Below, piece by piece: positions 8,464-42,585 of a stretch of 64,000 nt of DNA (positions are counted from its first letter, which is position 1; each line of letters starts with the position of its first letter). The notes under the pieces were generated by a model, which did no database searches, was not told the DNA's origin, and worked only from the letters and a program-made list of their open reading frames with translations. The translations under genes and the position numbers were made by a program. The DNA lies in NCBI RefSeq assembly GCF_021730305.1, contig NZ_CP032674.1, positions 4,139,001-4,203,000 of the forward strand, given 5' to 3'. Origin of the DNA: Xanthobacter sp. YC-JY1 (lineage in GTDB: Bacteria > Pseudomonadota > Alphaproteobacteria > Rhizobiales > Xanthobacteraceae).

Positions 8464-9057
8464 GTGAGGGCGTTCAATGCCAGCACCCTCGCGCTGCTCG
8501 CCTCCGGCCGGGCGGCGTCGCGTGGCCTCGTGCTGTTCGACTTTCCGAGCGGGCTTTACGGCTTCTGGGATGGCATCGGCAGCCTCACGGTGTCGGGCGT
8601 GACCTATGCGGGCTCGGGCGGCCTCATCCGGGCCGATTCCCTCAGCCTTGCCGGTTCGCTCGCCAGCGCCACCATGACCCTGACGCTGTCCTCCATGCCC
8701 GACACGGTGCTGTCCCCCGGCGTGCTGGCGACCATCGAGAGCGAGCAATACCACCAGAGGCCCGTCACCCTGAGCCGGGCCTATTTCAATCCGGCCACGC
8801 GGGCGCTGCTCTCGGTGGAGCGGGTGCTGCGCGGCTATGTGGACCAGATGCGCCACGCCGAGAAGCCCGGCGGCGAGGCGACCCTGAGCTGCCTCATCGA
8901 GACGCGGGCGCGTGACGTGACGCGGCGCGGCTACCGGGTGCGCTCCGACGCCGACCAGAAACAGCTTGCGGCGGCGGACGGGAGCCTGCGCCACGCGGCC
9001 ACGGCGCCGAACGACGATTTCTATTGGGGCCGCCTGCCCGGACAGGTGAAGAAATGA
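8464..9057 (+). CDS. Tail tip/baseplate hub protein (DUF2163-like position)
   Basis: A 197-residue protein from a GTG start (8464), chosen because no ATG exists near the upstream stop in this frame. It reads LVLFDFPSGLYGFWDGIGSL, then MTLTLSSMPDTVLSPGVLAT and TRDVTRRGYRV-like regions. Beta-rich proteins of this kind occupy the slot between distal tail protein and the cell-wall peptidase in alphaproteobacterial phages and gene transfer agents, where DUF2163 baseplate hub proteins sit. Family membership is a pattern match by eye. Confidence 0.5.
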   Translation: MRAFNASTLALLASGRAASRGLVLFDFPSGLYGFWDGIGSLTVSGVTYAGSGGLIRADSLSLAGSLASATMTLTLSSMPDTVLSPGVLATIESEQYHQRPVTLSRAYFNPATRALLSVERVLRGYVDQMRHAEKPGGEATLSCLIETRARDVTRRGYRVRSDADQKQLAAADGSLRHAATAPNDDFYWGRLPGQVKK

Positions 9058-9067
9058 GACGGTCGTC

Positions 9068-9472
9068 ATGAGATTTTGCGATTGGGAGGCGCGCCTCGCC
9101 GCCGTGCTCGCCGCCTATCAGGCGGCGGGCTTCGCCTGGGGCGTGCGCGACTGTTTCCGCCTGCCGCAGGACGTGGCGCGGGCCGTCACCGGCCGGGCCA
9201 TCTGGCCCGAGGTGCGGCCCTATCACAGCGCGCGCGGCGCCGTGCTGCGCCTCAGCCGCCACGGCTTTCGCGGCGTGGGCGACGCCTTCGCCGATGTGCT
9301 CGAAGAGATCCCGCCCGCCTTCGCGCTGCGCGGCGACGTGGGCGTGGTGATCGAGGACGGGGCGGAGGCGGGCGTGGTGGTGCTTGGCGCCGATCTCGCC
9401 GGCATGGCCCCCGACACCGGCCTGACCATTCTCCCTCGCGCCCGGCTGGCGCGCGCCTTCAGGATCGCCTGA
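9068..9472 (+). CDS. NlpC/P60-like tail peptidase (DUF6950-type)
   Basis: A 134-residue protein with WGVRDCFRLPQDVARAVTG near residues 24 to 42. The Asp-Cys followed by a helix is the nucleophile motif of NlpC/P60-like tail-tip peptidases, which open the cell wall during DNA injection (lambda K role). The later catalytic His is not obvious (candidate in YHSARGAV), so activity is uncertain. It sits directly before the J-like tip gene, the same order as K-J in lambda. DUF6950 proteins share this size and DCF motif. Confidence 0.6.
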   Translation: MRFCDWEARLAAVLAAYQAAGFAWGVRDCFRLPQDVARAVTGRAIWPEVRPYHSARGAVLRLSRHGFRGVGDAFADVLEEIPPAFALRGDVGVVIEDGAEAGVVVLGADLAGMAPDTGLTILPRARLARAFRIA

Positions 9473-9473
9473 C

Positions 9474-12347
9474 ATGCCGTTCGTGACCCCCGCCCTGCTC
9501 ACGGTTGTTGGCCTCACGGGTGTGCTTGCGCAGATCGGCGCGGGCCTAATCAACGCCGGCATCGTCGTCGGCCTCTCCTACGTCGCCAAGGCGCTGCAGC
9601 CTGCGACCAAGGTCGAGACCGGCATCAAGACGAGCATCCAGCTTGGCGGCGACCAGCCGCGCGGCTGTGTCTTCGGGGAGTGCGGGACGGAAGGCCATTT
9701 CGTCTATGGCAACACCGCCAACGAGAACAACAACCTGTTGCAATTCGTCTTCGCCATCGGCGAGGGCGTGCATGACGACCTGACCCGCATCTGGGTCAAC
9801 GGCAAGGCCCGCACCCTGACGCTGGTGGAGCAGACCACCTGGTACAAGAAATTCCGGGTGGGTGGCTTCGTGGCGAAGAACGGCACGCCCCTGCTCTACG
9901 TCTATTTCTACTTCGGCTTCGAAAACCAGCCGGCCTGTCCCGAGCTGGTGGAGTGGGCCAAGCCCGCCGATCGCTGGACCTCCAACGATCGGCTGGCCGG
10001 CATCTCCTATGTGGTGGTGTCCGCCTTCTACGGGGAGCAGGCCTTCGACAGCGGCATTCCCCGCTTCCGCTTCGGCATAAAGGGCCGCCGGCTCTACGAC
10101 TGGCGGAAGGACTCCACCAACGGCGGCTCCGGCGCGCATCGCTGGGGCGACGCCACCACATGGGAATACAGCGAGAACCCCATCGTGCAGCTCTACAATT
10201 ACCAGCGCGGCATCCATCTCGGGGGCGAGCTGGTGGTGGGCATGGGCGTTCCGCCGATCGATCTCGTGCTCGACCGCTACACCGCCGCCGCCAATGCCTG
10301 CGACGAGCCGGTCTCCACGGCCGAGGGGAGCGACGCCAACCGCTATCGCTGCAGCACCTATGTTTCCGCCGACGAGGAGCACGGCACCGTGATGGAGCGG
10401 CTGCTCGACAGCTGCATCGGCTCGCTCTACGAGCGCGTCGGCGCCTATGCTCCCATCGTCGGCGTGGCGCAGAGCGCGCTCTACACCTTCACCGATACCG
10501 ACCTGATCACCGATTATCCGGTGAGCTTCGCCGCGAAGCTCGGGCGTGCGGACCTGGTCAACGAGATCCACGGACAGAGGGTGTCGCCGGCCGACCAGTT
10601 CGGCATGGTCTCCTATGCCACCCGCACCGATGCGGCGGCGGTGGCGGCCGACACCGAGAAGCGCCCCATTCAGGTGGACTTCCCGCAGGTGACGGTGGAC
10701 TCGCAGGCGCAGCGGCTGGCGCAGATCCAGCTCAACCTCGCCCGTCTGCAGGCGACCGCGACGCTCACCCTCGGTCTCTCCGCCATCGTGCTGGAGCCGG
10801 GCGACTGGGTGCGCTGGAATTCGGCGCGGCGGGGCGACCGCACCTTCATCATCCTCTCGCTGGTGGAGAACACCGATGAGACGGTGACGCTGAACCTGCG
10901 CGAGATCTCGGCGGCGGCGTTCGGCTGGGACTCTGGCGACGAACTGCCGGCGCCGGCCTCGGGCGGGCCGAGCGAGGGGGGCGGGCTGGCGGATGGCGTG
11001 ACGGGGTTCTCGCTCTCCGCCCTCACCCTCAGCGGGGACGGCGGGGCGCTCACGCCCGCCGTGCGGGTGTTCTGGTCGCCCATCAGCGACCCGACCGTCA
11101 CGGCGGTGCTGATCCAGTATCGTATCGTCGGCACCACGGACGTGCTCACGGCGCGGGCCGAGGCGGTGGGCGCCGGCGAGCTGCTGGTATCGGCCGGGCT
11201 GGTGGCGAACACCGCCTACGAGTTTCAGGCGACCATCGAGACGGCGCCGCCCCGCGACACCGAATGGACGGCATGGGCGAGCATCATCACCGGGCAGCAG
11301 CTGGCCGGCGGGGTGGTGAACGATTCCATCACGCCCGAGCAGTTCACGGCGGCGACGCGCGATATGGTGGTGGCAAAGACAGCTGTCGATATCGTCTCCC
11401 TGCAATATTCGGTCGAGCGGCTGTCCCTGCTGCTGGCCGATGTTGACGCGGCGGGCGACCTCAATCGGCTGAAGCTGACCCGCACGCTGGTGCAGCAGCT
11501 CGGCGCGGCGACGGCGCGCTTTTCCGAGGAGATCACTGCCGCGACCGGGCCGGAGAGCGCGCTCGTGCAGCAGATCACGGATCTGCAAGCCTCGCTGGAG
11601 GCTGCGGACACGTCCTTGTCCGCGCTCATCACCACGGAGAGCACCACGCGGGCGACGGCTGACGATGCCTTGGCGGTGCAGATCAGCACTCTGCAATCGA
11701 CGCTGGAGACCGCCGACGCCAGCCTGTCGGCATCGATCACCTCAGAGGCGGGCACCCGCGCCAGCGCCGACAGTGCTCTCAGCAGCCAGATCACCACGCT
11801 CCAGTCCAGCATGGAAACGGCGGACGCGGCGCTTTCGGCCTCCATCACGTCGGAGGCCGGGACGCGGGCCAGCGCCGATAGCGCGCTGGCAACGCAGATC
11901 GAAACGCTGGAGGCGGCGCTCGGCGATGTGGGCGCGAGCCTTGCGGCGCGCTTCGTGGTGGCTGTGACACCATCGGGTGCCATCGCAGCCTATGAGTTGG
12001 AGGCGACGGCGGAAACGGCGAAGGCCGGCTTTACTGTGGTCGCCAAAAGCGATGGGGCCGGCGGCGCCATCGGCGAGGTGCATATCAATGCCGACCGGTT
12101 CTTCATTACCGCGCCGGACCTGCCGGGCACGGCGGTCTTCCTGGTGGATAATACGGGGCCAGAGCCGGTGCTTTACCTCAATGGCGATCTGATCGCATCC
12201 GGCTCGATCACGGCTGCAAAGCTCGACGTTGCGGAGCTGTCGGCCATCGTGGCCAACCTCGGCGAGATCACCGCCGGCATCGCGCGCTCGGCGGACAACC
12301 GCCTGCGGATCGACTTCGACAACGCACGGATCGTCATCAGCTCATGA
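9474..12347 (+). CDS. Tail tip host-specificity protein J
   Basis: A 957-residue protein. The N-terminus is hydrophobic (GLTGVLAQIGAGLINAGIVVG), followed by the conserved tip core (GGDQPRGCVFGECGTEGHF, WVNGKARTL), a fibronectin-like region (about residues 520 to 610), a coiled-coil region with near-identical repeats of TADASLSASITSEAGTRASA type (about residues 700 to 815), and a C-terminal DUF1983-like segment with ITAAKLDVAELSAIVANLGE. This is the architecture of J proteins that contact the receptor and hold side fibres. The next gene starts inside its last codons. Confidence 0.85.
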   Translation: MPFVTPALLTVVGLTGVLAQIGAGLINAGIVVGLSYVAKALQPATKVETGIKTSIQLGGDQPRGCVFGECGTEGHFVYGNTANENNNLLQFVFAIGEGVHDDLTRIWVNGKARTLTLVEQTTWYKKFRVGGFVAKNGTPLLYVYFYFGFENQPACPELVEWAKPADRWTSNDRLAGISYVVVSAFYGEQAFDSGIPRFRFGIKGRRLYDWRKDSTNGGSGAHRWGDATTWEYSENPIVQLYNYQRGIHLGGELVVGMGVPPIDLVLDRYTAAANACDEPVSTAEGSDANRYRCSTYVSADEEHGTVMERLLDSCIGSLYERVGAYAPIVGVAQSALYTFTDTDLITDYPVSFAAKLGRADLVNEIHGQRVSPADQFGMVSYATRTDAAAVAADTEKRPIQVDFPQVTVDSQAQRLAQIQLNLARLQATATLTLGLSAIVLEPGDWVRWNSARRGDRTFIILSLVENTDETVTLNLREISAAAFGWDSGDELPAPASGGPSEGGGLADGVTGFSLSALTLSGDGGALTPAVRVFWSPISDPTVTAVLIQYRIVGTTDVLTARAEAVGAGELLVSAGLVANTAYEFQATIETAPPRDTEWTAWASIITGQQLAGGVVNDSITPEQFTAATRDMVVAKTAVDIVSLQYSVERLSLLLADVDAAGDLNRLKLTRTLVQQLGAATARFSEEITAATGPESALVQQITDLQASLEAADTSLSALITTESTTRATADDALAVQISTLQSTLETADASLSASITSEAGTRASADSALSSQITTLQSSMETADAALSASITSEAGTRASADSALATQIETLEAALGDVGASLAARFVVAVTPSGAIAAYELEATAETAKAGFTVVAKSDGAGGAIGEVHINADRFFITAPDLPGTAVFLVDNTGPEPVLYLNGDLIASGSITAAKLDVAELSAIVANLGEITAGIARSADNRLRIDFDNARIVISS

Positions 12348-22562: not shown

Positions 22563-23980
22563 ATGAGAAACGATAGCGTTGTCCAAAAAATCTGGGCTTT
22601 ATGCCATATTCTTCGCGGGGACGGGATCAGCTATCACCAATATGTATCCGAACTGACCTATCTTTTATTCCTCAAAATGGCAGAGGAAAATGGCGTCGAG
22701 CGGCTGCTCCCGCCAAACTATCGCTGGGCGGATCTCGCCCGCCATCCGAAGGAAGGATTGCTCGGCTTCTATCAGGAGATGCTGACCCATCTCGGCACCA
22801 CCGCCGAAAGCGAGGTCATCCGAGCGATCTACGCTTTTCCGACGACCGTCTTCTCGCATTCTGAGAACCTCCACGCCGTTATCGACGGGATCGCGAAGAT
22901 CGACTGGCACGATGTCAGCGGCGACCGGTTCGGCGAAATCTATGAGGGGCTTATTGAAAAGAGCTCGCAGGATGTACGATCGGGAGCGGGACAATATTTT
23001 ACGCCGCGCGCCTTGGTGAATTCAATGGTTCGCGTCTCCCGGCCGGCTCTTGGCGAATTGATCCAAGATCCGGCGGTCGGCAGCGGCGGCTTCCTGATCA
23101 CGGCCGACCGATATATCCGCTCCCGCCATTCAGATGCGGCGTACCGCGACACTCCGCCAAAATATCAGGGTGTTGAAATCGAGAAGAACACCCGCAGAAT
23201 CTGCCTGATGAATACGTTCTTGAATAGGCTCGATGCCGATATCATCCACGGCGACGCGCTGACCGACATGGCCGTCAACTCGGGAAAGCGAGCCTCGTGC
23301 TGGCGAACCCGCCCTTCGGCAGCAAGGCGGGCAGTCGTCGGGCACTCCGCGCGGACATCTCATATCGTAACACCAACAAGCAGTTAGCGTTTCTACAGCA
23401 TATCTACCTAACGCTGAGCGAGAGCGGGCGCGCCGCGGTCGTGCTCCCCGACAATGTCCTGTTCGAGGATGGTGTCGGCCGTGCCGTGCGGCAGGAACTG
23501 ATGGCGACCTGCCGCCTGCACACGATCCTGCGCCTTCCGAAAGGCATCTTCCCCGGCGCGGGGGTGAAGACAAATGTGCTCTTCTTCGCCAAGCGAGCGG
23601 GGCACGCTACGGACGATGTCTGGTTCTACGATCTGCGCAGCAATATGCCCGCGTTCGGCAAGAGCAATGCGCTGCTCGATGCGCATTTCAAAGATTTTGA
23701 GCGCGTTTACGGCGCCGATCCCGCGGGGATGTCGTCCCGCAAGGACGAGGGCGAAGACAGCCGTTGGCGCAAGCTGACGCGCGCGCAGATCGCCGAACGC
23801 ACCGACAACTTGAACTGGTTGTGGCTGCGTGACGAGAGCGGCGATCCGGACGATACCATGCAGGATCCGGCCGAGATTCTCGTCGCGATCATCGGCCATC
23901 TCCGCGGGGCCCTTGGCGAACTGAATGCGCTCAATAATGAGATCGAGGGCGACGACTTTCAGCTGAAACTGACCCAATGA
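22563..23980 (+). pseudogene. hsdM: Type I N-6 adenine methyltransferase, frameshifted
   Basis: Together the two frames encode a 470-residue HsdM. The first frame (to about 23285) has the N-terminal helical domain, the QYFTPRALVNSMV segment and SAM motif I (QDPAVGSGGFLI). The second frame (from about 23288, ending 23980) resumes with LVLANPPFGSKAG, the NPPF catalytic motif, and the C-terminal region ending GDDFQLKLTQ. The change needs one extra base near GGGAAAGCG (23282-23290). Unless this is a sequencing slip or a frameshift is used, no full methyltransferase is made. HsdM methylates DNA with HsdS to protect host sites. Confidence 0.85.
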
Positions 23981-24065
23981 GCACGGGCTATCTTCGAAGG
24001 CACCAGATTCCAGCGCGGTGCCGCCTCGGCCATGAGGGCCGGGCGCGAACCGCCCTGCCCTGCCT

Positions 24066-25727
24066 ATGCGGTGCGGCGTCACGATGGTAAGCAGGCTTCC
24101 GCCCGGCTGGGCGCGCGCGAAGCTCGGAGATATCGGCATTCTCTATGCCGGCCAGTCTCCGAGCGCGCACATGGTCAACGAGGAGGGGCGCGGCACGCCC
24201 TATGTCACTGGACCCGAGCAGTGGGATGGCCGGGCATTCCACAAGCCGAAGTGGACGACCGATCCGCGCAGGATCGTGCCCGAGGGGTGCATCTTTATCA
24301 CCGTTAAGGGCGGGGGAGTCGGCAAGACCTTCCCTGGCATCACCGCGGCGATCGGGCGGGATATCCAAGCTTATCAGCCCAGCACCGAACTGGATTTCCA
24401 GTTCATGCTTCGCACTATTGCCTATCGCGCAAGCGAGATCATCGAACACGCCCGCGGTGATATTCCAGGGCTTTCGAAACGCCATATTGAAGATTATGCG
24501 GCGGCGATCCCGCCTGTCGCCGAGCAGCGCAGGATCGTCGCCCGCCTTGAGGACCTGAGCCCGCTAATCGACGTCTCGCGCAGCGAGTTGCACAAAGTCG
24601 TGCCACTGGTCGGTCAATATAGACTTGCCCTTTTGCGCTCCGCCTTCCGCGGGGAACTCACTGTCGATTTTCGCGCGGAGCACACGCTTGAGCCAATCGC
24701 GGACCTGTTGGCGCGTATCGAGGCGCCTGAACAGACCCGTGGCGGGCGGGCGCCGACGAACGAGATCATTGCCGGGAGAGGCGGAATCTCGGTCAACAGT
24801 CCCGGCACTGCACTCGCCGACGGCTGGGCGTGGGTACCGCTCATGCGGGTGGCACGTCAGGAAACCGGGCACACACCGAGCCGGTCTCATCCGGAATGGT
24901 GGAACGGCGATGTGCCTTGGGTCGGGATTCCCGACGCCAACCGGCACCACGGCGGAGTGATCAATGACACTCTGCAAACCATCAACGCGGCAGGCCTCGC
25001 CAATTCCGCAGCGCGGCTGCTTCCAGCGGGAACGGTCGTGCTATCGCGTACGGCGTCGGTTGGCTACGTCGCGATCATGGGCCGAGAGATGGCGACCAGC
25101 CAGGATTTCGCTACCTGGTCGTGCACCGAGGCGCTCGATCCGCGATACCTCATGTATGCCCTGCTGTCGGAAGGTGACGACATCCGAGAGTTCGGGCGCG
25201 GCACGACCCACACGACGATCTATTTTCCCGAGATCAGGGCGTTCACCATCAAGCTCGCACCGATCGAGGAGCAGCGGGAGATCGTCCGGCGGATAGAGGA
25301 GGCGCTTGCTAGAATCGATCGAGTTATCGCTGATGTGGAGCTGTCGTTGCGATTGATCGATCGAGCGGAGCAGCGCATTTTGACAAGGGCGTTTTCGGGA
25401 CAACTGGTCGAACAAAATCCCGCTGAGGAATCCGCCCAGCAGTTGCTTGACCGCATACAGAAAATGCCTACCGCTCCCCTCGTCACGGCGCCCAAGCTTC
25501 CGAAAGCGAAGACAGTGAAAACAGACCCAACGCAGGCCTTGTTAGCCGACAGCGCCGACTGGCCCGACAAAGGCTTGACGTTCGAGGCGATAGCTAAACG
25601 GGTCGTTCTGCCTTACGACGCCGTGCGCGATGCGCTCTTCGAGCTGCTCGGCAGTGCCTCTCCCAGTCTGGTTCAGGTATTCGACGAAGAGGAAGGCCGC
25701 ATGCTGCTGAGGAGGGCCGCTCCATGA
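24066..25727 (+). CDS. hsdS: Type I restriction-modification specificity subunit
   Basis: A 553-residue HsdS with two target-recognition domains, each closed by a conserved helix: the first around IPPVAEQRRIVARLEDL (about residue 150), the second around APIEEQREIVRRIEEALARI (about residue 400). The N-terminal half is similar in pattern to the second, as expected from the internal duplication that recognises two half-sites. The start could also be the ATG at 24084 (MVSRLPPGWARAKLGDIG), which fits the family better. A long C-terminal extension (about 110 residues) follows the second helix. It overlaps the ATPase gene by 4 bases. Confidence 0.88.
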   Translation: MRCGVTMVSRLPPGWARAKLGDIGILYAGQSPSAHMVNEEGRGTPYVTGPEQWDGRAFHKPKWTTDPRRIVPEGCIFITVKGGGVGKTFPGITAAIGRDIQAYQPSTELDFQFMLRTIAYRASEIIEHARGDIPGLSKRHIEDYAAAIPPVAEQRRIVARLEDLSPLIDVSRSELHKVVPLVGQYRLALLRSAFRGELTVDFRAEHTLEPIADLLARIEAPEQTRGGRAPTNEIIAGRGGISVNSPGTALADGWAWVPLMRVARQETGHTPSRSHPEWWNGDVPWVGIPDANRHHGGVINDTLQTINAAGLANSAARLLPAGTVVLSRTASVGYVAIMGREMATSQDFATWSCTEALDPRYLMYALLSEGDDIREFGRGTTHTTIYFPEIRAFTIKLAPIEEQREIVRRIEEALARIDRVIADVELSLRLIDRAEQRILTRAFSGQLVEQNPAEESAQQLLDRIQKMPTAPLVTAPKLPKAKTVKTDPTQALLADSADWPDKGLTFEAIAKRVVLPYDAVRDALFELLGSASPSLVQVFDEEEGRMLLRRAAP

Positions 25728-27316
25728 GGCTACGGCTACTCAAGGTCGAGCGATCGGGCACCGGTGGCGGCCTTTACGACGGCACTCAGATCTGGTTCGG
25801 CCGCGATGCCGACGGCAAGGCGGGCGAGGCCCTCGCACCTCTGTGCATGATCGGCCCCAATGGTTCGGGTAAGTCGCAGTTCCTCCAATTGGTTGCCGAG
25901 ATTTTCCAAGCGGCGTGGCATGCGCATGCGCCCGATGAGGAGCGGCGTAGTGCTAACGACGCTGTACTGTTCGACCTAGAATACATGGTGCAGCCTAAAG
26001 GCGCGGATAGCTATGAGACTGTGCGTCTCATCCGCGAGGCTAAGGGCAAAAAGCCCGGACCAATCGCACTTATCCGCACTAATGGTCAAAGCATCAAGCC
26101 GGGAGACCCGGACTTCGGACAGTTTCTGCCGACTTTGATCATCGGCTACACCTCGGGCGATAATGAGACGCTGAGCCTGCCGTTTCTTGCCAGCCGAAGC
26201 GGTTACGCAAGAGATGTCGCCAAAGCGGCGCGCATGGTAGAAGCCAGGAAGGTGCCGGATAACCGGCTGATGCTGATCGATTATGGCACCAATCTGGAGG
26301 TGCTGTTTTCCAATCTCATGCTCGGCTCCGAGTTCGTTAAGTCAGAACTGCTGCGACATGCCAGCCTGGGCGACCTTGCGTCCTGCCGCTGCATAGTGCG
26401 GCTTGCGCACTCAGCCGTACCTAAAATCCCGAAGAAGAAGCGCATTTCTTCGCGCAAGGGCGTCCAGCTCACCGATGAACTCGAGACGGTCATCGACAAT
26501 CTCCAGCGCACCGCAACCTGCTGGCATTTCGACGAGAAGACCGAGACATACACCTTCGATTTCCTGATCACTGAGGCGACACGTGAAGCATTCCGGCATT
26601 TCTGGTCCGACGCCTTTTCGCTCTACCGGTCTTTGCACAAGCTAGCACTGCTCAACGACCTCGCCATTCCGCGTCCTGCGCGCAAGCGATTCGACAAAGC
26701 GGTTAAGGAGCGGCGCTTCGCCTCGAGGTTGCCCGAGCCGCAGCAGGAGGACATGGTCTTCAGCTTCGAGGAAGTCCGCTTCTGGCCGAAGGACAAGGCA
26801 TCGGATCCGGTTGACTATGTATCGTTGTCCGATGGCGAGCATCAGCAAGCGCTGATCCTCGGCATTTATGCGATGATCGCCGATGCCAACGCGATTTTTC
26901 TGCTCGATGAGCCAGAGTCGCATTTCAACCCGAAGTGGCGCGTCGAATTCGTCCAACAACTAATGAAGATGGTGGGCGACCGCGGCAATCAAGAATTTCT
27001 GCTAACGACGCATGCGCCATTCGTGCCGTCGGATATGCCGAGAGATCAGGTGATGATCTTCTCGAGGGACGCGAGTACAGGCAAGTTCATCGTCGAGGCG
27101 CCCAAAATCGAAACTTTCGGCACCACGTTCGACCGCATTCTCGAAAGCTGCTTCGGCATTCGCCCGCCCAACTCGCACATCGCCGAAAAAGAAATCGCAA
27201 AGCTCCTCAAGTCGGACGATCTAGCGAAGGTTGAGGAGGGGTTCAGGGAGCTCGGCCCGTCGATCGGGAAAGCGCTTCTGGCCGATCATCTGCGAAAGCT
27301 GAAAAATCGGGACTAG
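25724..27316 (+). CDS. AAA/ABC-type ATPase of a restriction-linked defence module (PtuA-like)
   Basis: A 530-residue ATPase with Walker A GPNGSGKS (residues 44 to 51), ABC-like signature LSDGEHQ (about 367 to 373), Walker B IFLLDEPESHFNP (about 391 to 403) and H-loop TTHAPF (about 430). This SMC/OLD-like layout is that of ATPases found with restriction systems and of Septu PtuA. It overlaps hsdS by 4 bases and is followed 2 bases later by an HNH nuclease gene, the PtuA-PtuB arrangement. Likely an effector that senses DNA or phage and licenses the nuclease. Confidence 0.8.
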   Translation: MRLRLLKVERSGTGGGLYDGTQIWFGRDADGKAGEALAPLCMIGPNGSGKSQFLQLVAEIFQAAWHAHAPDEERRSANDAVLFDLEYMVQPKGADSYETVRLIREAKGKKPGPIALIRTNGQSIKPGDPDFGQFLPTLIIGYTSGDNETLSLPFLASRSGYARDVAKAARMVEARKVPDNRLMLIDYGTNLEVLFSNLMLGSEFVKSELLRHASLGDLASCRCIVRLAHSAVPKIPKKKRISSRKGVQLTDELETVIDNLQRTATCWHFDEKTETYTFDFLITEATREAFRHFWSDAFSLYRSLHKLALLNDLAIPRPARKRFDKAVKERRFASRLPEPQQEDMVFSFEEVRFWPKDKASDPVDYVSLSDGEHQQALILGIYAMIADANAIFLLDEPESHFNPKWRVEFVQQLMKMVGDRGNQEFLLTTHAPFVPSDMPRDQVMIFSRDASTGKFIVEAPKIETFGTTFDRILESCFGIRPPNSHIAEKEIAKLLKSDDLAKVEEGFRELGPSIGKALLADHLRKLKNRD

Positions 27317-27318
27317 GA

Positions 27319-28401
27319 ATGCTTTTCTCGTATCCGATAGAAGCCATCGGCCAGAACTGGCTGAACGCGGTTGCCGTCGATCTGATGCTCGCTGGCATGG
27401 ACGCGATCGACGCGGGGCGCCGACCCGCGGCTTGGCCCGCGTGCCTGCCGCAGGCTCGGCGTGCACTTCTCGAGCAGCGCACCGGTCTGAAATCGAAACT
27501 CACCGCTCTGCTGCGCGAGTATCGCAGACTCCCCGCGGCTGAGCGGCCGGACGTGCGAGCGGCCATTCTCAGACAGACCGAATTGCCCAATGTCTTCAGC
27601 GATGCCGCCCCGTGCCCGACGCTCGCTTCGCTGCCGGCGTCGATCCGCGCACCGGCGAGTGCGCTCGCGGACTATCTCTTCGACCAGCTGTCGAGCCTTA
27701 AAGAGGGCGACGGCTTCCTACGCGACAATCAATATAAGATTATCTACGCAAGCGAGATTAGGCATTGTCCGTTCTGTGGTCTCAATTATTTTCGCGCGCC
27801 TGGCGCACCGCGGCACGCGCTCGACCATCTGTTGCCGATCTCGATCTACGCGTTTGCTGCCGCCGACCTACGCAATCTCCCGCCAGCCTGTGACGAGTGC
27901 AATTCAACCTACAAACGCGGCATCGATATCTTGATCGGCCTGGGCGGACTGCGCCGCCGCTGCTCAGATCCTTATTCTGGACCGACCTATCGGATCAGCC
28001 TGGAAGGCAGTGAGTTTTTCAAGGGCAACACGGTCGGCGGGTATGTCCTACCGCGGTGGAACATCTCGATGGTCGGCGACGAGCTAGACCGGGCTGAGAC
28101 ATGGAACGCCGTGTATCAGATTAAGCTGCGCTACGCGCGCGACATCCTCGATGCCGACTTCCTCAGCTGGATCAAGCATTACAGTGGCTGGTTTTTGGCC
28201 GAACTGGGGCGCGGCCGTGACGCCAACGGAGTAGCGGCCGAACTACCCCGCTATATCAACAATGTGATCCAGGATGGCTATGCAGATCGCGCCTTCCTCA
28301 AGGCCGAAGCGTTCAGGCTCCTCAATCACGCCTGTCAGGACCCGGGGATCGGGGATGACGTCCGACACTGGCTTTGGGCCTTCGTCGAATATGCACAATA
28401 A
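27319..28401 (+). CDS. HNH endonuclease (PtuB-like effector)
   Basis: A 360-residue protein with a zinc-bound HNH nuclease core: CPFC (residues 150 to 153), HALDHLLP with the catalytic His at 170, NLPPACDECN with Asn 186, CxxC at 191 to 194 and Asn 195, then TYKRG. The N-terminal 140 residues are helical and may contact the ATPase. It starts 2 bases after the ATPase stop, so the pair is co-translated. By analogy with Septu, it should cut DNA or RNA on activation. No HsdR is found next to hsdMS, so this nuclease may be the cutting arm. Confidence 0.8.
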   Translation: MLFSYPIEAIGQNWLNAVAVDLMLAGMDAIDAGRRPAAWPACLPQARRALLEQRTGLKSKLTALLREYRRLPAAERPDVRAAILRQTELPNVFSDAAPCPTLASLPASIRAPASALADYLFDQLSSLKEGDGFLRDNQYKIIYASEIRHCPFCGLNYFRAPGAPRHALDHLLPISIYAFAAADLRNLPPACDECNSTYKRGIDILIGLGGLRRRCSDPYSGPTYRISLEGSEFFKGNTVGGYVLPRWNISMVGDELDRAETWNAVYQIKLRYARDILDADFLSWIKHYSGWFLAELGRGRDANGVAAELPRYINNVIQDGYADRAFLKAEAFRLLNHACQDPGIGDDVRHWLWAFVEYAQ

Positions 28402-31930: not shown

Positions 31931-31974
31931 GACACCTGTTCAGGGTAACCGCCGCGTTATCTGAACAGGATGTC
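31931..31974. repeat. Inverted repeat downstream of the toxin gene
   Basis: GACACCTGTTCAG and CTGAACAGGATGTC pair over 9 consecutive bases plus 4 outer bases, with a 17-base loop. There is no T run on either side, so a terminator role for the leftward toxin operon is unsure. It could also be the end of an old mobile element. Confidence 0.4.
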
Positions 31975-32410
31975 ACGCTATGTTCAGCGCCGCCTCTATT
32001 CTTCTTGCGAGTTCGTCTTCGGTCAACTCACTCGCCGCCAGCGCCAACCATGTCGTCACCGCTGCGGCATCGTCCATAGTCAGATCGTACCCGTTGAGGG
32101 CGAGGAACAACTCGCACACCACGAAGGAGGTCCGCTTGTTGCCGTCCACGAAGGGATGGTTCTTGGCGATGCCGTAGGCGTAGGCAGCTGCCAGGGCCGC
32201 CACGTCAGAGGCGGACATCTGCTCTTGGCCGCCTTCGTCCTGCTGCATGTAGTGGTAGCGGTTCTTCGGACGATCGAGTGCCGTTTCCAACAACCCCTCG
32301 TCGCGCACGCCTCTGCCACCGCCATGCTCCGCGAGCTGGGCGTCATGAACGGCGAGCACCACGGCCTTTGTCACCCAGCGCGGTTCCTGTCGGCCGTCGG
32401 GCTCGCTCAC
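31973..32410 (-). CDS. doc: Doc-type Fic domain toxin
   Basis: A 145-residue protein with the Fic motif HPFVDGNKR (residues 85 to 93) and the Doc-family N-terminus (AVHDAQLAEHGGGRGVRDEG). Doc toxins phosphorylate EF-Tu and stop translation; the shorter HPFxDGNKR form fits Doc rather than AMP-adding Fic proteins. It is translated with a 4-base overlap after the AbrB-like antitoxin gene, the classical antitoxin-first order. It may stabilise the island. Confidence 0.9.
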   Translation of the reverse strand: MSEPDGRQEPRWVTKAVVLAVHDAQLAEHGGGRGVRDEGLLETALDRPKNRYHYMQQDEGGQEQMSASDVAALAAAYAYGIAKNHPFVDGNKRTSFVVCELFLALNGYDLTMDDAAAVTTWLALAASELTEDELARRIEAALNIA

Positions 32411-32631
32411 TTTGCCAGCTCACGCAGCGCGTTACGCCGCTTCTTCATGATCTTGCGGGCTTCCTCCATCTGCGCCTCGAACTCCGGTTCGTAGGGCGTG
32501 AGGTGGTAGCCGTCCGGCGTCTCGGTCAGATAGAGCGTATCGCCCTGCTCCACCTTGAGGCGGGCCAACACCTCCTTGGGCAGCACGGCGCCGACCGAAT
32601 TGCCGATCCTTCCAAGCTTGAGTGCGACCAT
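32407..32631 (-). CDS. AbrB/MazE-type antitoxin
   Basis: A 74-residue protein with the swapped-hairpin AbrB fold pattern LKLGRIGNSVGAVLPKEVLA and a charged C-terminal helix (EFEAQMEEARKIMKKRRNAL) that should cover the toxin. An AGGAG ribosome site lies 9 bases before the ATG. Together with the Fic toxin downstream it forms a type II toxin-antitoxin operon; it is probably the autorepressor. Pairing AbrB-type antitoxins with Doc is common in Proteobacteria. Confidence 0.88.
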   Translation of the reverse strand: MVALKLGRIGNSVGAVLPKEVLARLKVEQGDTLYLTETPDGYHLTPYEPEFEAQMEEARKIMKKRRNALRELAK

Positions 32632-32731
32632 GGCGATAGCTCCTTTCGTATGTACAGATGTATGAACGAACGTGGGTCGTCAAGGCATGTCCGCTTCCGC
32701 ACCCAACAGAGCGGACCTGCGTCAGCCCAAA

Positions 32732-33736
32732 TTAGTCCTCGGTGAAAGGCTGCCAGTCGTCGATGAGACGATGAACCGGCGAGAAGTCCGTGTACCGCGC
32801 ATGCAGGCGCGCGGAGAGGTCGGGGTCACCCGCTTCGCTAACGGCCGCGATCACATCCTCCAGGGCAATCGCCATGAAGGATACCCCGTCAGGCCGACGG
32901 TCGAGCATGGAGCGGTAAAGTTCCACGGCATACCAAGCTTCCCGGTTGGCGGCAGGTGCGATCGTGACGAACAGGCCATGGGCACCCTGCCCCCACTGCT
33001 CCCGGATCAGAGCGGCCAGAAGATGCTCGGCGGTGAGCTGGGCGAGGTGACCGGTCAAAAGGCTCGGCGCCTCAGGATCGAGATGAAGGGCGCAGGCACG
33101 GGTGAGTTCCCGATACCGGGCAGACCCGCTCCGTCCCGGCTGTCGCATATCCTCGGAATACTTGACCTCGATGGCGATGAAGGCGGGCCGACCGTCCGGG
33201 CAGGTACCGCTCACGAAGAGGTCGAAGGCGGTGTAGTCACCGAGATAGCGCGGGTCACCACGCCCCGGCGAGTGCTCGAAGGCCAGCTTCTCCACCTTCC
33301 CGAAGAAGCCGGGGAAGAGGCGCTCGAAGAGGCGATGGCGGCGTTCCTCATCCACCTGGCACAGTGCGAACAGGTTGAAGGTGAGCGGCTGGCTCGACAG
33401 GAGATTCTCCCACAGGCGCTGCTCATCGATGAGGGCGCCGTATTCTCGATAGGCTACGGCACGGCGCGCCAGCCGAGCTATGTCCGGGGTAAGGAAATTA
33501 CGACCACGACGCGCATCGGCAGGATCCAGGCGACTGCCCAGGACGCGGAGGCGCCCATCCCGCCCTCGATGCCGGCCGGCGGCAAGTCCACGCCCTGCAC
33601 GCCACAAAGATTGCAAAAGTCGCGCACAGCTCGCAAATCGAGTATCCCCCACCTCAAACACGTGATGTTCCTGGAGAATATCCCGTGGGACAAGGGGGAG
33701 ACGTACATTGCCGTAAGTGTCTTTATTTTCAGTCAT
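32732..33736 (-). CDS. PGN_0703-type putative restriction endonuclease
   Basis: A 334-residue protein with the PD-(D/E)XK core: FDLFVSGTCPDGRPAFIAIE followed by VKYSED (Asp, then Glu-x-Lys), preceded by LTFNLFALCQVDEE. This matches the PGN_0703-type putative restriction nucleases. The N-terminus contains LQSLWRAGRGLAAG and GRNFLTPDIARLARR, also typical. No methyltransferase is adjacent. It lies 100 bases upstream of the antitoxin gene on the same strand and is divergent from the replication-like gene at 33811. Confidence 0.75.
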   Translation of the reverse strand: MTENKDTYGNVRLPLVPRDILQEHHVFEVGDTRFASCARLLQSLWRAGRGLAAGRHRGRDGRLRVLGSRLDPADARRGRNFLTPDIARLARRAVAYREYGALIDEQRLWENLLSSQPLTFNLFALCQVDEERRHRLFERLFPGFFGKVEKLAFEHSPGRGDPRYLGDYTAFDLFVSGTCPDGRPAFIAIEVKYSEDMRQPGRSGSARYRELTRACALHLDPEAPSLLTGHLAQLTAEHLLAALIREQWGQGAHGLFVTIAPAANREAWYAVELYRSMLDRRPDGVSFMAIALEDVIAAVSEAGDPDLSARLHARYTDFSPVHRLIDDWQPFTED

Positions 33737-41283: not shown

Positions 41284-42585
41284 TCACCCCTTCTTAGGTG
41301 CCAACTCCTTCACATTACTCTCCGGCACAATGCCCAGCTTCGGGAAGGCCGCGCGGATAGTGTCGGCCACGTAGGACGGAGCGAGGTGGGCGTAGTGCTT
41401 CTCAGTGATGCGCGTGTCCGCATGCCCGAGTTGTGCCGCGATCACGCCCATGGGCACCCCGGCCATGGCCAAAGTGCTGGCATGGGTGTGGCGGAGCACA
41501 TGAAAGCCGATGGCCGGCACGATCGTCGCCACAGCGCAGGCCTCGGCCAGCGGCCGTGTCTGCTGCGCCGGCTTCCAAGGCCCACCGTCGTCGCGCGCGA
41601 AAACCAGCGCACTCCCGTCCTTGCCATGGATCAGGCTGCGGAACAGCGCCGTGGCTTCGTCGGTCAGGACGATGTGACGGGGCTTGCCCCCTTTCGCCTC
41701 CCGCACTGCGACCGTGCGAGCATCGAGATCGATGTCCACCACCTTCAGGCGGGCCAGTTCGCTGTACCGCGCACCGGTCAGCAGTGCGCCGCGCACCAGC
41801 GCACGAAGTGGCTCCGCGCAAGCGTTCACCAGCCGCGTGCATTCGGCGGGCTTCAGATAGCGGATCACCGGCGCATCCACCGCAGCGAAGGGCTTCACTG
41901 CGCGCCACGCTTCGTCACTGCTGATGTGCCGTTCGTGCCAGGCGTGGTTCAGGGCCGCCTTCAACACCGTGAGGATGCGATTGGCGGTGGCGCGTCGCGA
42001 ACGCACCGCATCCGTGTCGTCATGATCCACCGCTCGTGTGGCTCGTTCCTTGGCGGTGCTCTTGGTGCGGACCATCCTGGGGGCGGTGGCGATGCCCCGA
42101 TGCCAATCTCGGATGCGGCGCGTGGTCAGCTTCGCCAGTTCCACACCGCCGAGCGATGGACGGATGTGGATCTCGATGACCCGGCGGGTGGCATATTCCG
42201 AGCGGCCGCCTTTCCCCACATAATGTGCCATGTAGTCATCGCAGGCATCCGCCACCGTATAGGGGCCGGTGCTGGCAGAGAGCCCCAGCGCACGGCGCTC
42301 CTCTTCCTGGTACCAATTACGGGCCACTGCCTGGGCCTGGCTGAAGGACAGGTGCGCCGCGCCATCCGCATCCTGCACGTCGTCCGTCGAGCCGAGCGCA
42401 TGTTCGGTGTAGCGCTTGCGCTCGCCATCCCATCGCCGGGCAAGCCAGCTGCCGCCGCTTTTCTTTCGCCGGTAGCCGAGAGCGAGCCCGCCATCAAGCT
42501 GCTTCCAATAGGGCTCGCCCCGCACGGCAAGTCGTGCTCGGGCGGTGCGAGTTTCGAGGGCTGTATCTCGGACGGTGCGGGCCAT
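41284..42585 (-). CDS. int: Tyrosine site-specific integrase
   Basis: A 433-residue integrase. Catalytic residues are visible: Arg in LLTGARYSELARLK, His/Arg in HVLRHTHAS, His in LGHADTRI and Tyr in TEKHYAHL. The N-terminal arm-binding and core-binding (SAM-like) regions precede it (YTVADACDDYMAHYVGKGG). It lies 160 bases from the right att repeat, transcribed away from it, as usual for island integrases. It should recombine the 21-bp tRNA-like site. Intact. Confidence 0.92.
   Translation of the reverse strand: MARTVRDTALETRTARARLAVRGEPYWKQLDGGLALGYRRKKSGGSWLARRWDGERKRYTEHALGSTDDVQDADGAAHLSFSQAQAVARNWYQEEERRALGLSASTGPYTVADACDDYMAHYVGKGGRSEYATRRVIEIHIRPSLGGVELAKLTTRRIRDWHRGIATAPRMVRTKSTAKERATRAVDHDDTDAVRSRRATANRILTVLKAALNHAWHERHISSDEAWRAVKPFAAVDAPVIRYLKPAECTRLVNACAEPLRALVRGALLTGARYSELARLKVVDIDLDARTVAVREAKGGKPRHIVLTDEATALFRSLIHGKDGSALVFARDDGGPWKPAQQTRPLAEACAVATIVPAIGFHVLRHTHASTLAMAGVPMGVIAAQLGHADTRITEKHYAHLAPSYVADTIRAAFPKLGIVPESNVKELAPKKG

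Follow-up and report, generated by a model that had tools for sequence, protein, structure and literature searches.

Gene content of the cassette

The DNA analyzed here (the window) is a stretch of 64,000 nucleotides of the Xanthobacter sp. YC-JY1 genome (contig NZ_CP032674.1, positions 4,139,001 to 4,203,000) and carries a cassette of type I methyltransferase genes followed by an ATPase gene and a predicted nuclease gene, in the order hsdM (split), hsdS, ABC-type ATPase, and zinc-type HNH (Table 1). These four genes had been correctly placed by an initial annotation, which proposed a hybrid system in which HsdMS marks self DNA and a module resembling the Septu pair PtuA/PtuB does the cutting instead of HsdR. 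Comparison with homologous loci rather suggests that the cassette is a shortened member of a mobile operon of the composition hsdR-hsdM-hsdS-(TIGR04435 ATPase)-HNH. The tight junctions described previously exist between hsdS and the ATPase gene (4-base overlap) and between the ATPase and HNH genes (2-base gap), but hsdM and hsdS are more loosely arranged and lie at least 85 bases apart.

As also annotated previously, the window is devoid of hsdR: tblastn with the collected hsdR proteins and fragments detected neither the gene nor a remnant of it there (no match better than E 0.048). The genome has a single HSDR_N match, located at 0.62 Mb in a locus with hsdM and hsdS genes of its own; the cassette lies at 4.16 Mb of the 5.39-Mb contig. 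Compared to a classical type I system, the window cassette therefore lacks an hsdR gene beside hsdM and hsdS and, with hsdM distributed over two frames, also an intact HsdM.

Table 1. Genes and protein regions of the cassette (positions within the window).
Feature	Position	Strand	Supporting evidence
hsdM piece 1 (HsdM_N and S-adenosylmethionine-binding part, before the frameshift)	22563..23387	+	Pfam HsdM_N, N6_Mtase; PADLOC MTase_I 1-266
hsdM piece 2 (NPPF motif to C-terminus, other frame)	23297..23980	+	PADLOC MTase_I 258-480; continues the alignment with HsdM of L049
hsdS, two target-recognition domains	24066..25727 (start possibly 24084)	+	two Methylase_S stretches; PADLOC Specificity_I 5e-103
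HsdS C-terminal extension	25440..25727	+	extension profile; so far only in cassettes with a TIGR04435 ATPase
PtuA-like ABC-type ATPase, TIGR04435	25724..27316	+	398 bits, cut-off 300; PADLOC PtuA 1.1e-40
Zinc HNH protein (CxxC...DH...CxxCN), PtuB-like in core only	27319..28401	+	PADLOC PDC-M62B 3e-9, PtuB 9e-4

The ATPase belongs to the NCBIfam family TIGR04435 (“restriction system-associated AAA family ATPase”; 398.1 bits with a curated cut-off of 300) and is flanked by hsdM and hsdS directly upstream, here with hsdM split, and by an HNH gene directly downstream. The name of this family already records a tie to restriction systems as an association, is silent on the HNH partner, on the extension of HsdS described below, and on the state of hsdR, and in the literature searched, neither its wording nor the accession led to a paper. 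Among PADLOC models, those of PtuA match the ATPase best, and a profile of ten ATPase sequences run against solved structures has PtuA as its best named matches (the top two rows read only “AAA family ATPase”). The motif LSDGEHQ and motifs that we take to be Walker A, Walker B, and the His switch are invariant or nearly so in alignments of 6 and 10 sequences. For the HNH protein, CxxC, DH, and CxxCN are invariant in all 10 aligned sequences including that of the window, and at E values up to 1e-3, these are matched by the PADLOC candidate pairs PDC-M62B and PDC-M01B in 10/10 cases and by PtuB in 9/10.

Recurrence of the gene order

Relatives of the cassette were drawn from plasmids, Pseudomonadota and Bacteroidota genome samples, GTDB contigs, and viral contigs, and the locus set formed from these samples and the matches listed holds at least 26 loci in the ATPase clade of the window. 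Dropped before all counts were L053 (all four genes in pieces) as well as L060, L061, and L062, which are remote or truncated and have an ATPase without visible HNH partner; among the weak PtuA-type matches of the order sample, L047 and L048 alone were taken further. At an E value of 1e-10 the ATPase was not found in phage records, and scanning the viral contigs with the single HNH sequence gave no relative. The order seen in the window, with or without hsdR in front, recurs in records of Pseudomonadota, Bacteroidota, Bacillota, and Cyanobacteriota, and since it is shared across four phyla, it seems to be more than chance. The overlap of hsdS and the ATPase gene is exactly 4 bases in 16 of the 26 clade loci and their distance at most 20 bases in 23 of them, as determined by a script that picks the start codon nearest to the upstream stop and hence favors small gaps. 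The three exceptions are L039 with a split hsdS, L044 with a split ATPase gene, and the remote L055 with hsdS 1.8 kb away.

Proteins above the TIGR04435 cut-off are encoded in 2 of 397 genomes of the order and 2 of 398 genomes of the phylum sample (the Xanthobacter genome itself being counted in both), as well as in 8 of 345 Bacteroidota genomes, a sample centered on G750, for which the cassette was known beforehand. The same 8 Bacteroidota genomes contain the strong HNH matches (E below 1e-39), each beside hsdM and hsdS, and weak partial HNH matches are found in 6 others. The association of the ATPase–HNH pair with hsdMS that the initial annotation had assumed is thus seen in each of the genomes of this sample that encode the pair.

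A second ATPase clade is represented by E. coli strains ET490 and NCTC11121 and several plasmids, where the gene order is hsdM-hsdS-ATPase-short partner or hsdS-ATPase-partner-hsdM; two of its ATPases were scanned, and both score below the TIGR04435 cut-off. Among the eight loci inspected (L040, L041, L047, L048, and L091 to L094), we see hsdR in L047 and L093, with L091 beginning too near to decide and an incomplete annotation of the plasmids. Of 5426 E. coli genomes, 6 contain 80% or more of the ET490 cassette. The E. coli loci L040 (11993-17669) and L041 (12001-17528) are locally R-less cassettes composed of hsdM, hsdS, an ATPase gene, and an HNH-like gene.

The state of hsdR across the family

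In the ATPase clade of the window, hsdR is found upstream (hsdR-hsdM-hsdS-ATPase-HNH) at 15 of 24 determinable loci, including L071 with hsdR at 1.5 kb from hsdM, and is missing or a mere wreck at the other 9: the window, L037, L038, L044 (with the ATPase gene itself in pieces), L049, L054, L056 (wreck), L076, and L077. L052 and L073 are outside the 24 because contig ends leave their hsdR state undecided, and without the long-branch rows L045 and L055 the count becomes 13 of 22. The expectation that hsdR would always be absent from this gene order is therefore not borne out, and because hsdR adjoins the cassette at 15 of 24 loci, a replacement of HsdR by the ATPase–HNH pair does not define the family; the R-less arrangement itself does recur, at 9 of 24 loci.

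On the ATPase tree, the hsdR state changes 6 times by parsimony, with 4 changes forced by well-supported branches, in a topology with 12 of 27 inner branches poorly supported and a bootstrap that had not settled. The window groups with L056, the nearest relative found, and then with L049 of Stutzerimonas, and all three lack a functional hsdR next to the cassette, in contrast to their next sister, L036 of a Sphingobium plasmid. L056 has kept N- and C-terminal pieces of hsdR around an internal deletion, and no hsdR was found in the 6.9 kb upstream of hsdM at L049. Given the hsdR pieces of L056 and the hsdR gene of L036, loss seems likelier than original design as the origin of the R-less state in the window.

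A C-terminal extension of HsdS

At the C-terminus, the HsdS proteins of these cassettes have an extension of ca. 95 residues, and matches of the HsdS profile to solved structures end before it, by position 440 of 520. The profile of this extension recovered its members in 20 of 24 leave-one-out tests. It found no match among 10 control HsdS proteins (obtained from 14 regions that surround ordinary hsdR genes, one of them a fragment), none among 4 HsdS of the second clade, and none at E values up to 1e-5 in HsdS of four further ordinary loci. A closely related system of Stutzerimonas that shares the kind of hsdR and hsdM but has no ATPase likewise encodes an HsdS without the extension. Seven of the 345 Bacteroidota genomes have matches, always in an hsdS abutting the ATPase gene; 6 of these 7 supplied rows of the profile, leaving G972, with 13 HSDR_N matches and one extension, as the sole independent case. 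The 337 Bacteroidota genomes without the ATPase gave no match, with the number of their HsdS proteins not counted. Judging from these comparisons, the tie of an HsdS extension to loci of TIGR04435 ATPases appears to be a new observation.

Likeness to known systems

The cassette resembles Septu and the PtuAB module of retron Ec78 in that a zinc HNH partner is encoded directly downstream of a PtuA-like ATPase. It differs from Septu by an ATPase that misses the NCBIfam PtuA cut-off (47.7 of 500 bits), by an HNH partner that is PtuB-like in its core only, and by coupling to a type I methyltransferase, whereas Septu types I and II are described as occurring alone or with a reverse transcriptase (PMC8565338). 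PtuAB of retron-Eco7 degrades tRNA-Tyr (PMC11555353), and tRNA-Tyr is also cleaved by a Septu (PMC13096335).

Another parallel is found in PrrC (EcoprrI) and RloC, which are ATPase-type effectors, with PrrC being genetically linked to a type I system (PMC12707154, PMC2610378); PrrC resides in the type I locus and is activated upon phage inhibition of the enzyme (PMC12707154). However, PrrC consists of a single protein that has an anticodon nuclease, whereas the cassette encodes two proteins with an HNH nuclease and sometimes lacks hsdR. The back-up effectors of BREX similarly comprise an ABC ATPase and a varied nuclease backing a modification system (PMC12839542), but those systems are BREX and the cassette has a type I methyltransferase. 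A published operon of the type hsdM-hsdS-PtuAB was not found in the literature searched, with Krishnan 2020, which PMC12839542 cites for systems resembling restriction–modification and which is the likeliest place, being outside this search.

A possible back-up nuclease at a type I methyltransferase

Gene order, co-occurrence within one phylum, patchy presence of hsdR, and the HsdS extension are the observed basis for interpreting the cassette. Our preferred explanation, put forward with slightly less than even confidence, is a PtuAB-like back-up nuclease that is anchored to the methyltransferase complex (M2S), comparable to PrrC, with hsdR being optional; its complex, trigger, and target are what we infer. 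HsdM and HsdS would form a type I methyltransferase marking self DNA and HsdR, where present, would restrict, while the PtuA-like ATPase and the HNH protein would constitute a second, latent effector that is probably anchored to M2S via the extra C-terminal part of HsdS. Phages that block or remodel the methyltransferase complex (through anti-restriction proteins or unmodified DNA) would probably release or switch on this effector, and the HNH subunit, once released, might cut tRNA or DNA, so that the logic of PrrC would be executed with PtuAB-type parts. Dependence of the second effector on M2S would lead one to expect the patchy hsdR state seen on the tree. A more pointed version seems possible and rather doubtful to us, namely, that a docking domain for a PtuAB-type effector was acquired at the C-terminus of HsdS, that M2S is the phage sensor, and that HsdR is dispensable and was repeatedly lost, with modification serving self-recognition and the other nuclease doing the killing.

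Several observations weigh against such a back-up role. The Septu likeness noted previously holds for the ATPase, which resembles PtuA both in PADLOC and among solved structures, but the likeness of the window HNH protein to PtuB (8.6e-4) covers only ca. 55 residues of the HNH core, and the profile of the HNH family has no convincing match among solved structures (best E 4.6). The extension profile failed in 4 of 24 leave-one-out tests and in G750, a cassette genome, and anchoring of the ATPase–HNH pair through the extension is our guess from its specificity and position. Furthermore, L045 and L055, two of the rows with hsdR, are long branches and unsure members of the clade. All six searched genomes with R-less cassettes encode hsdR elsewhere; G946 has it ca. 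15 kb downstream of the cassette beside its own hsdM and hsdS, and both hsdR genes of G918 are accompanied by their own hsdM and hsdS. In Stutzerimonas, one hsdR elsewhere in the genome, likewise with adjoining hsdM and hsdS genes of its own, matches that of L036 in kind, so that HsdR could act in trans on R-less cassettes. Finally, 9 of 24 loci without a working hsdR beside ATPase and HNH genes are as compatible with a substitute nuclease as with a guard.

A substitute nuclease is the essence of the initially proposed hybrid, where HsdMS would label self DNA and detect unmodified sites, with the ATPase–HNH pair cutting DNA in place of HsdR. The locally R-less order indeed recurs, at 9 of 24 clade loci, in E. 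coli ET490 and NCTC11121, and on a Pantoea plasmid. For two of the clade loci, L037 and L038, HSDR_N matches are absent from the plasmid records (the host chromosomes being outside the search). At the 15 loci with hsdR, however, a second DNA cutter would be redundant, and the window has an intact ATPase and HNH protein despite its split hsdM, an arrangement in which an unguarded self-cutter should be harmful. We therefore regard the hybrid as unlikely; it fails as a definition of the family and is possible for its R-less members. That independent defense genes are merely co-located in a defense island, given that type I and Septu genes both generally cluster in islands, is already disfavored and seems very improbable in view of the recurrent order with overlapping genes, the co-occurrence, and the link between HsdS extension and ATPase.

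If the back-up nuclease anchored to M2S is real, it would be a third setting for PtuAB-type effectors (alone in Septu, with a retron, or with a type I methyltransferase), and type I systems would be able to swap their killing arm or add a second one. A specific docking hypothesis that lends itself to testing follows from the HsdS extension, and with E. coli relatives that have no hsdR nearby, tests in a laboratory host would be feasible.

The split hsdM of the window

The hsdM frameshift reported previously lies near 23.29 kb and was reproduced in our analysis: the two pieces, in two frames, match neighboring portions of a single PADLOC model of the type I methyltransferase (487 positions) and together align end to end with the intact HsdM of L049. 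Piece 1 contains what we take to be motif I, and piece 2 what is presumably the NPPF motif. With hsdR missing and hsdM split, the window copy is probably impaired; an exception would be a frameshift that stems from a sequencing error or is bypassed.

A decaying remnant without present function, which lost hsdR, had its hsdM split, and now adjoins prophage genes and an IS66-like element, has close to an even chance of being the correct description of the window copy. This concerns the window and not the family and is compatible with a back-up nuclease. Besides the split hsdM and the window's lack of any hsdR remnant, decay is suggested by the internally deleted hsdR of sister L056, the lack of hsdR within 6.9 kb upstream of hsdM in sister L049, the broken loci L044 and L053, and the failure to find a full copy of the cassette DNA in 140 further genomes, of which 13 are listed under the same genus and 20 have partial DNA matches of 64-94%. 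Yet hsdS, the ATPase gene, and the HNH gene of the window are full length with intact motifs, and the frameshift in hsdM may be an artifact of sequencing or be bypassed. One such bypass would be programmed -1 ribosomal frameshifting that regulates the level of HsdM and, hence, the effector. The frame junction does hold the sole in-frame X XXY YYZ heptamer of piece 1 (23282-23288), and the other cassette frames have 1 such heptamer in 1662 codon positions. However, the heptamer is also explained by a Gly-Lys pair whose codons are read in both frames, the fold downstream of it is unremarkable (z 0.12), and L036, L049, and L056, with hsdM open throughout, have no in-frame heptamer at this point, making regulated frameshifting quite improbable.

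Variant loci and neighboring genes

A permuted order with hsdM last (hsdS-ATPase-partner-hsdM) and no hsdR seen is found in L044 (7352-13266) and L092 (7388-13086); L094 (7245-13035) is permuted in the same way, with no hsdR seen and no gene annotated in the place of the partner. At L036 of Sphingobium, hsdM and hsdS are separated by inserted genes for an 8xMP membrane protein and a GIY-YIG/DUF4357 protein (8710-10427). Near hsdM of R-less loci we find a DUF2075-annotated gene (L037, 6135-8000) and a Schlafen group 3 helicase gene (L054, 5206-6978), and the related Bacteroidota loci L076 (6512-8026) and L077 (11553-13091) have genes of the same kind beside the cassette, with that of L076 encoding a patatin-like phospholipase.

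In the window, prophage tail and endolysin genes lie to the left of the cassette and an integrase gene at 41284-42585. No tRNA genes were found in the window, and no long repeats marking a prophage end were seen in its positions 1-36000. The open reading frames to the right of the cassette are presumably IS66-like. Downstream of the cassette, genes for a Fic protein and a PDDEXK_13/REase-ARP nuclease are encoded on the minus strand (31973-33736).

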